The notes under the pieces were generated by a model. That model was not told the DNA's origin and ran no database searches. It saw nothing but the letters and a program-made list of their open reading frames with translations. Shown here one piece after another: positions 6,507 through 11,232 of a stretch of 41,131 nt of DNA. The DNA comes from a virus, in the IMG/VR virus record IMGVR_UViG_3300035682_000074, positions 1-41,131 of that record; one strand, given 5' to 3'. Each line of letters opens with the position of its first letter. Within the stretch, counting starts at the first letter, position 1. A program made the translations under genes and the position numbers.

Positions 6507-6537
6507 TTGCAATTAACAGAATTATTAACTACATTTG
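6507..6537 (+). promoter_or_regulatory. Bacteroidota-type promoter (TTG - 20 nt - TACATTTG)
   Basis: TTG at 6507-6509 and TACATTTG at 6530-6537 match the Bacteroidota -33 (TTG) and -7 (TAnnTTTG) elements with a 20-nt spacer. The element lies in the 57-nt gap before the ERF gene, giving a predicted leader of roughly 20 nt. The site before the SSB gene has the same spacer length and many identical bases, which raises confidence in both. Confidence 0.75.
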
Positions 6538-9528: not shown

Positions 9529-9831
9529 ATGGATACTATACTAGACCTAGAAATGAAAGTAGTAGATTGGGCACACCGCCGCAATCTAGTGCACCCCGAG
9601 AACGTAAACAGCCAAATGCTGAAGGTTATGGAGGAAGTGGGGGAACTTGCCTCAGCCATTGCCAAGAACAAAGAAGAAGAGACCATTGACGCTATCGGAG
9701 ATGTCCTCATTACGCTGATTATTCTGTCCGCTCAGCTTGAACTTAACCCTTGGGATTGCCTAGAGGCTGCCTACGGTGAAATCAAAGAGCGAAAAGGCAA
9801 ACTGGTCAACGGAATATTTATTAAAGAATAA
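9529..9831 (+). CDS. mazG: MazG-like nucleotide pyrophosphohydrolase
   Basis: This is a single-domain MazG-like protein of 100 aa. The metal-binding signature is complete: MEEVGEL with Glu35/36 and Glu39, and EETIDAIGD with Glu51, Asp54 and Asp58. MazG enzymes hydrolyse NTPs or dNTPs to monophosphates. Phage versions are thought to shape the nucleotide pool or modulate the host (p)ppGpp response. It lies inside the replication block just before the SSB gene. The TAA stop starts the structured element at 9830. Confidence 0.85.
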   Translation: MDTILDLEMKVVDWAHRRNLVHPENVNSQMLKVMEEVGELASAIAKNKEEETIDAIGDVLITLIILSAQLELNPWDCLEAAYGEIKERKGKLVNGIFIKE

Positions 9832-9893
9832 AGTAGGAAGTCGTTGACGGCTAGTACGTTGGCGCAATTAGGGATATTTAGCCTACTTTTTTT
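9830..9893 (+). ncRNA. Structured element A: branched terminator or small RNA
   Basis: An 8-bp outer stem AAAGTAGG (9830-9837)/CCTACTTT (9882-9889) closes on an inner 8-bp hairpin CGTTGACG (9842-9849)/CGTTGGCG (9857-9864) with a GCTAGTA loop. The outer stem runs into seven T's (9887-9893), as in an intrinsic terminator. The inner part aligns with the element at 10652. GGATAT (9872-9877) could instead pair with ATATCC (9898-9903), offering a second fold. The enclosed hairpin is larger than a terminator needs. Confidence 0.55.
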
Positions 9894-9903
9894 AAGGATA
9901 TCC

Positions 9904-9934
9904 TTGCTATTAACACTCTTATTAACTAAATTTG
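9904..9934 (+). promoter_or_regulatory. Bacteroidota-type promoter (TTG - 20 nt - TAAATTTG)
   Basis: TTG at 9904-9906 and TAAATTTG at 9927-9934 have the same 20-nt spacer as the ERF promoter, and much of the spacer (TTAAC repeats) is alike. It sits between structured element A and the SSB start at 9951, giving a leader of about 10 nt. A terminator followed at once by a promoter would separate SSB expression from the upstream genes. Confidence 0.75.
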
Positions 9935-9950
9935 TTAAAAATTCATAACA

Positions 9951-10271
9951 ATGGAAAATAAATCAGAAAAAATCTTCTGCGGCTACGTTAAGTCGGTGAA
10001 GTTATGGGACGAAGGCCAACGGGCATTTGTTGAACCACGAGAAGGAGTATCAATGCGTTTCAGCCTTTCAGTTGCTGAAATGAATGACCTTCAGCGTTAC
10101 GCCACCAAGGGGGAGAAGCCTTTCGTTTCTTTCGACCTTAAGCGTAGCTCGAAGGGGTCGTACTACATTGAAGTATCCGACCCATCCACGTGGGCTCAAC
10201 GTCCTCAGGCAGGTCTATCAGCGCCACAGGCTCCAAAAGCGCCCGTAGCCAATGATGACCTTCCCTTCTAG
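9951..10271 (+). CDS. ssb: Single-stranded DNA-binding protein with SSB-type C-terminal tail
   Basis: The 106-residue protein has a beta-rich N-terminal part compatible with a small OB fold (CGYVKSVKLWD, then RFSLSVAEMNDLQRY and PFVSFDLKRSSKGSYYIEV). A Pro/Ala/Gln-rich linker follows, and the protein ends in NDDLPF, the acidic hydrophobic SSB tip that normally recruits repair and replication proteins. It has its own promoter and stands between recombination and replication genes. The OB-fold core is inferred from composition, while the tail is direct. Confidence 0.75.
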   Translation: MENKSEKIFCGYVKSVKLWDEGQRAFVEPREGVSMRFSLSVAEMNDLQRYATKGEKPFVSFDLKRSSKGSYYIEVSDPSTWAQRPQAGLSAPQAPKAPVANDDLPF

Positions 10272-10653
10272 GCTTCTTGAGTCCTCGTTAGTTTACCTTG
10301 TAGGCTTTGAGTGGGGGATGGACATTCTAAAGATTGAATATCCCCTATTCTACGCCTCTACCCCTTCCAAGAAATTACATTGGTTTGAGGTGGTTACGGC
10401 CGCCTCTACTGATGGTGTCGTGACCTTTGATAAGGTGTCGGACAAGGAATACTCTGTCATTTACTTTCCTAACAGGAAAAAGGGAGACAATGTACTACTT
10501 GTTCAAACACATAAACTGAAGCCGACACTTACTGGATTTGAATTGGCTGACTTGATAATCAGAAGAGCCGAGATTCGGGTAGAAGAAATTATCGAGCAAG
10601 GGATATACAATCAGCTCGAGGCCAAGAAGAGCAAGTTAACCGAACCTCAATAA
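10252..10653 (+). CDS. Hypothetical protein, 133 aa (or 111 aa)
   Basis: The frame starts at ATG 10252 inside the SSB tail coding sequence or, without overlap, at ATG 10318 (MDILKIEYPLFYAS). It is an alpha/beta sequence with SVIYFPNRKKGDNVLLVQTHK in the middle and a long charged helix (RRAEIRVEEIIEQG) near the end. No family recognised. The TAA stop is the first part of structured element B. Confidence 0.55.
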   Translation: MMTFPSRLLESSLVYLVGFEWGMDILKIEYPLFYASTPSKKLHWFEVVTAASTDGVVTFDKVSDKEYSVIYFPNRKKGDNVLLVQTHKLKPTLTGFELADLIIRRAEIRVEEIIEQGIYNQLEAKKSKLTEPQ

Positions 10654-10713
10654 AGGGAGCATCTTACTTCAGTAAGTCGGTGGCGTTATGGATACGTTAG
10701 TGCTGTCCCTTTT
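10652..10713 (+). ncRNA. Structured element B: three-way-junction RNA-like element
   Basis: Outer stem AAAGGGA (10652-10658)/TCCCTTT (10706-10712) encloses two hairpins: CTTAC-TTCA-GTAAG (10663-10676) and CGGTGGCG/CGTTAGTG (10678-10685/10695-10702) with a TTATGGATA loop. The second hairpin has one G-G mismatch. Its left strand and what follows align with element A: AAGTCG, TG, CG, TA, TACGTT and GC are shared over about 28 columns. A T-rich tail follows. The loop holds the ATG of a possible 25-aa frame. Confidence 0.5.
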
Positions 10714-10765
10714 ATTTATAGTAATGGCCATAATTGCCATTAAAACAACACCAAAGAATAAATGA
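10688..10765 (+). CDS. Possible 25-aa single-membrane-span micro-protein
   Basis: ATG 10688 to TGA 10763-10765 encodes a hydrophobic span (LVLSLLFIVMAIIAI) followed by a basic tail KTTPKNK. The stop overlaps the next start as ATGA, like many genuine gene pairs here. The ATG lies in the loop of element B, so either the ORF or the RNA could be the selected unit. The basic tail after the span suggests the C-terminus faces the cytoplasm. Confidence 0.4.
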   Translation: MDTLVLSLLFIVMAIIAIKTTPKNK

Positions 10766-11232
10766 ATCTTCAATATTCCGCATCTAGGATGCAAACTTTT
10801 GGCATCGCCATCTCAGACTACTATAGGATTGATATATTTTCAAGCACTCGCAAGGGAGTAGTCGTCAACCTAAGAAAGGCTTCATACTATGTGCTTCGCC
10901 GTAGGGGTATAACATTTTCAGCTATTGCCGCAGTGTTTGATAAGAACCACGCAAGCATAATGCACGGAGCTAAAAGTTGCGCTAACCTACTTGAGGTTCG
11001 AGACCAAGATATGCGTAAGTATGTAGATGTGATTGAACTCATCGCTAACGAAATATTTCAAGAAACCGAGGCCGACAATATGCGCCCCGAAATGAGATTA
11101 AACATATACCGATTAAAGTTTATGGATTTCCTTATCGAGCAGGACAATCTTCTTCCCTCATTTAATTTAAGTGAGCGCAAAATGATGTCTCGAAAGATAT
11201 TTAACGAAGTACATAAAGACTTCTATGAGTAA
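10762..11232 (+). CDS. DnaA domain IV-like initiator protein
   Basis: Residues about 37-80 read NLRKASYYVLRRRGITFSAI, then AAVFDKNHASIMHGAKS. This matches the DnaA C-terminal DNA-binding domain, which has an R-x-x-x-Y-L-L-R helix followed by the G-x-x-F-x-x-x-x-H-x-x-V-x-x-A signature helix. There is no AAA+ ATPase part, so this 156-aa protein would recognise DnaA-box-like DNA without ATP-driven melting. The C-terminal 75 residues are helical and unassigned. It lies directly before the primase-helicase, which suggests a role in replication initiation or loading. The ATG overlaps the upstream micro-ORF. Confidence 0.7.
   Translation: MNLQYSASRMQTFGIAISDYYRIDIFSSTRKGVVVNLRKASYYVLRRRGITFSAIAAVFDKNHASIMHGAKSCANLLEVRDQDMRKYVDVIELIANEIFQETEADNMRPEMRLNIYRLKFMDFLIEQDNLLPSFNLSERKMMSRKIFNEVHKDFYE

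Follow-up and report, generated by a model that had tools for sequence, protein, structure and literature searches.

A probable intrinsic terminator with a branched loop and a tRNA-Arg relic, rather than two copies of one RNA, before the replication genes of a Bacteroidetes-type phage

Our analysis of a 41-kb IMG/VR virus record (IMGVR_UViG_3300035682_000074, all 41,131 nucleotides of which are referred to as the window) suggests that two similar-looking sequences, element A (9830-9893) and element B (10652-10713), have separate identities. Specifically, A is best read as a Rho-independent-type terminator and B as the relic of a tRNA-Arg gene joined to the start of a 25-amino-acid open reading frame (ORF), with their likeness having arisen by chance, a reading to which we assign a probability of about 0.9. 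The initial annotation had instead proposed one branched RNA family present twice. Its account of the letters, the coordinates, the positions at stop codons and the long outer stems was accurate. Other parts held to a lesser degree: the outer stem ends in T's that form a U-tract in A, but the T-rich end of B is coding, and the inner 8-bp hairpin is pairable throughout A and at 7 of 8 positions in B, but is absent from the minimum-energy fold of A in the window. The features of the region are as follows.

9529..9831, + strand: MazG-like nucleotide pyrophosphohydrolase gene (PF03819, 6.8e-07; phrog_1992, 1.1e-35)
9830..9893, + strand: element A, intrinsic-terminator-like (compensatory changes; three-way junction consensus; short terminator in its place in L007-L009)
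9904..9934, + strand: predicted Bacteroidetes-type promoter, TTG-N20-TAAATTTG (31-nt motif found twice in the window; conserved in L003-L009)
9951..10271, + strand: small ORF of 106 aa ending in DDLPF, no family match
10252..10653, + strand: ORF2, 133 aa, no assigned function (in relatives, its final 18 nt double as the 5' end of a tRNA-Arg)
10646..10681, + strand: tRNA-Arg(UCU) relic, left half of element B (match to the tRNA-Arg of L004, score 34)
10688..10765, + strand: 25-aa ORF, MDTLVLSLLFIVMAIIAIKTTPKNK followed by a stop, predicted small hydrophobic protein (same protein in L003)
10762..11232, + strand: DnaA C-terminal-domain-like gene, 156 aa (PF08299, 5.7e-06, below cutoff)

The comparisons herein rest on relatives recovered by a protein search that used the ORF lying between the two elements (9951..10271) as the query, which returned 11 related IMG/VR contigs (L002-L012). 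Further profile searches recovered these contigs again, together with three distant records, and a DNA comparison against an annotated phage collection revealed no close phage. L002 is identical to the window across the A/B region, and the other ten contigs (L003-L012) differ from it. Identity of the primase-helicase protein to that of the window is about 90% in L003-L006, 80% in L007-L009 and 68% in L010-L012.

Element A begins within the stop codon of the mazG-like gene, and in every relative that keeps the gene order (L003-L009) a stem and then a T-run lie directly 3' of that stop. In the window, the outer stem comprises 8 bp (9830-9837/9882-9889) and the U-tract extends to 9893, such that the stable stem and adjoining U-tract of an intrinsic terminator are both present. 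The outer stem also covaries, reading AAAGUAGG/CCUACUUU in the window versus AAGAGGG./.CCCUCUU in other relatives. Across the four distinct sequences available, whose arms we cut out and aligned manually, both partners have changed in 5 of the 8 pairs and every position is paired in every sequence; under the same four-sequence, hand-made alignment, 3 of 500 shuffles were equally good and controls with slid arms scored far lower. Inside this stem lie the 8-bp inner hairpin (9842-9849/9857-9864) and a weak third hairpin at about 9866-9870/9875-9879. The resulting apical loop is branched and 44 nt long, and a short loop of about 3-8 nt is found only in the versions of L007-L009, where the site holds a plain terminator of roughly 33 nt that lacks the branched interior. 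Hence, a simple terminator scan restricted to loops of 3-8 nt missed element A, and we describe A as terminator-like with a decorated loop, given the length and branching of that loop. Termination in the host is predicted. The element sits at the boundary between two putative operons, and a terminator is its best reading. In the mechanism we envisage, the G+C-bearing outer stem and the U-tract would be the working part, ending the upstream transcript that runs from the ERF-family gene to mazG, and the apical loop would have been enlarged into a small branched fold. A separate candidate, that A might be a second tRNA relic, was rejected, as no similarity was found and 31% of shuffles aligned as well.

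Just 3' of A, at 9904-9934, lies the promoter-like sequence TTGCTATTAACACTCTTATTAACTAAATTTG, and the extended 31-nt motif to which it belongs, TTGCNATTAACANNNTTATTAACTANATTTG, occurs twice in the window (6507-6537 and 9904-9934; 0 copies expected by chance), preceding the ERF-family gene and the 9951 ORF, respectively. The motif probably marks two phage operons, and its repeated ATTAAC may include a regulator site. From the layout, a predicted promoter right after A would start the next operon, with a message presumably covering the 9951 ORF (whose product is possibly a single-stranded-DNA-binding-type protein), ORF2, the tRNA relic, the 25-aa ORF, and the DnaA-like and primase-helicase genes. 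The small, weakly DnaA-C-terminal-like protein encoded at 10762-11232 adjoins the primase-helicase.

The identity of element B became apparent from the relatives, in which the same site holds an intact tRNA-Arg(TCT) gene in L003-L006 and L009. ARAGORN called tRNAs across L003-L009, and at the B site the genes fold as cloverleaves in ARAGORN and exceed the gathering score of the Rfam tRNA family RF00005 (64-67 bits in L003, L004 and L009, with L005 and L006 likewise). These tRNAs overlap the 3' end of ORF2 by 18 nt (L003, 3695-3712; L009, 3683-3700), the TAG stop of ORF2 falling within the D loop, and ORF2 of the window ends at the corresponding position with the stop TAA. Neither ARAGORN nor the RF00005 models called a tRNA at B in the window, where remnants of the D arm and anticodon arm persist as CTCAATAAAGGGAGCATCTTACTTCAGTAAGTCGGT. 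Aligned to the tRNA of L004, with the alignment anchored by conserved flanks, this relic scored 34, a value that none of 5,000 shuffles reached. With its T arm and 3' acceptor strand missing and its 5' acceptor strand diverged, the window copy is in our view a pseudogene; judged from its alignment, the left half of B is a degenerate tRNA-Arg(UCU) gene rather than a tRNA, presumably no longer functional. A probable history is that the 3' end of ORF2 was formerly shared with a tRNA-Arg(UCU) gene and that a deletion (net 24 nt) removed the T arm and 3' acceptor strand of this tRNA, alongside which its 5' acceptor strand would have diverged. From the relic itself and from the intact gene in L009, we infer that the tRNA was lost here and not gained, even though L010-L012, the farthest relatives, carry no tRNA. 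A different tRNA-Arg(TCT) is present in L007 (3738-3812) and L008, scoring below the Rfam gathering threshold and sitting 37 nt after ORF2 without overlap, which is possibly an independent replacement. The share of AGA codons looks lower in the window, but a site-by-site comparison of arginine codons revealed no significant shift in response to tRNA loss (13 versus 8, p 0.38). A pattern search of genomes for the origin of the tRNA returned matches across many phyla and was uninformative, and a literature search on tRNA remnants or tRNA-gene overlaps in phages found no report.

From about ATGGATACGTTAGTGCTGTCCCTTTT onward, the right half of B forms the beginning of a 25-codon gene that encodes a membrane-like protein and whose stop is overlapped by the start of the DnaA-like gene via ATGA. 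The protein is identical between the window and L003 (3771-3848) across 10 nucleotide differences in 78 (68 of 78 identical), and that of L004 carries one I/V change. Since the protein is kept despite these nucleotide changes, the T-rich 3' stem arm of B is coding sequence under protein-level constraint, and the small protein is presumably expressed. B does not constitute an independent RNA element, and we ascribe no RNA function to the window copy.

It is against these identities that a single RNA family has to be weighed. The idea of A and B as two copies of a phage terminator class, riboregulator or small RNA draws on the letters that they share in the window (AAGTCG..TG.CG...TACGTT) and on two scoring schemes that gave nominally low shuffle rates of 0.4-1%. 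However, the similarity varies with the scoring scheme (between 0.4-12% of dinucleotide shuffles reached the same level), between 2 and 216 of 2,729 other window segments matched A as well as B did, and unguided alignment, including by MAFFT, placed the two in another register than the one first proposed. In L003, L004 and L006, the counterparts of A and B are dissimilar, with 60-66% of shuffles scoring as high. A covariance model built from A (R1) matched A in six records (E below 1e-20), whereas B was absent from its matches up to an E of 10. A two-sequence model (R2) found both A and B since it had been built from both, and its weak match at the B site in relatives (E 0.27-0.47) covers the start of the 25-aa ORF. 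Similarly, the consensus pattern matched in the window with 0 matches expected, a result that is post hoc, given that the pattern was derived from the two copies themselves. No further members emerged among viral contigs: besides the phage itself, matches to AAGTCGNTGNCG..TACGTTNG looked by eye like segments of other genes, with a single conserved stretch recurring in many of them, and a scan for the inner hairpin of A returned known relatives and matches inside long open frames. Rfam gave 0 matches to the window at the gathering threshold, its permissive matches being irrelevant. No additional copies with compensatory changes linking A to B were found among the viral contigs, an outcome that the initial annotation had named as refuting its proposal, and shuffling showed neither fold to be clearly more stable than expected in the window (A, z -1.21, 29 of 200 shuffles as stable; B, z -1.40, 21 of 200). 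The counterparts of B are a tRNA-Arg gene and a coding start. Some of the letters that B shares derive from the tRNA anticodon stem and from the joint left by the deletion, and others belong to codons of the small ORF; the resemblance is therefore coincidental. With the failure of R1 on B, the dissimilar counterparts and the tRNA and ORF homologs of B, we rejected the single family, which we consider extremely improbable. What stands of the proposal is an element A that is branched, terminator-like and marked by compensatory changes in relatives, but not a family of two copies.

Two further readings would grant one of the elements an RNA role beyond that described above. For A, the conserved three-way junction could be a functional RNA in addition to a terminator, for example, a stable small RNA derived from the 3' untranslated region (UTR) or a terminator regulated through the binding of a phage or host factor. 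In L003-L006, the element folds as a three-way junction at -25.3 kcal/mol, and the L003 copy is more stable than all 200 of its shuffles (z -3.19). A consensus fold of the window and L003-type copies contains 23 pairs, four with compensatory changes, this alignment of the interior comprising two independent sequences; the 16 bases of the inner helix are invariant between the window and L003 as the loop varies, and the third hairpin includes one compensatory pair. Against this, the comparison covers two independent sequences, the third helix carries a T-T mismatch in the window, where the junction shape (-13.0 kcal/mol) gives way to an alternative minimum-energy fold at -15.0 kcal/mol, and the interior is missing from L007-L009, in which a plain terminator suffices. 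We consider such an added function unlikely, and its more specific form, a phage-specific functional RNA grown inside a terminator loop within one Bacteroidetes-type phage clade, slightly less likely again; if true, this RNA would be either a terminator under regulation or a small RNA from the 3' UTR. For B, the relic might have been re-used, with a new AATAAAGGGA/TCCCTTTTATT pairing acting as a terminator or attenuator before the DnaA-like and primase genes. The window does fold this stem, and its 5' arm differs from that of relatives. The 3' arm, however, belongs to the coding part of the 25-aa ORF and occurs even in relatives without the stem, the stability is ordinary (as given above), and a terminator there would split the operon before the replication genes, which makes re-use very improbable.

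Since A reads as a branched terminator and B as a tRNA relic plus the start of a 25-aa ORF, our results call for no new RNA family. The removal of a false family leaves in its place a probable operon boundary, made up of a terminator and a promoter, and, within one phage lineage, a tRNA gene in decay that is intact in close relatives. Those relatives form a small natural series for tRNA loss, spanning an overlapping tRNA (L003-L006 and L009), a relic (the window), a different tRNA-Arg (L007-L008) and none (L010-L012).

Relative to known systems, each component combines familiar and deviating traits. Element A resembles an intrinsic terminator in having a stem and T-run right after a stop codon, in the preservation of that stem by compensatory changes, and in the predicted promoter of the next operon lying downstream, whereas its loop is branched rather than short (44 nt in the window and similar in L003-L006). 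The B site matches a phage tRNA-Arg(UCU) of RF00005 in the five relatives in which it is intact, and the window retains D-arm and anticodon-arm remnants, although its copy is without the T arm and the 3' acceptor strand. Finally, the TTG-N20-TAAATTTG sequences at 9904-9934 and 6507-6537 resemble the Bacteroidetes sigma-ABfr promoter, for which the consensus is TTTG/TAnnTTTG (PMC6847099), but both window copies share a 31-nt motif (ATTAACA...TTATTAAC) that extends beyond this known consensus.
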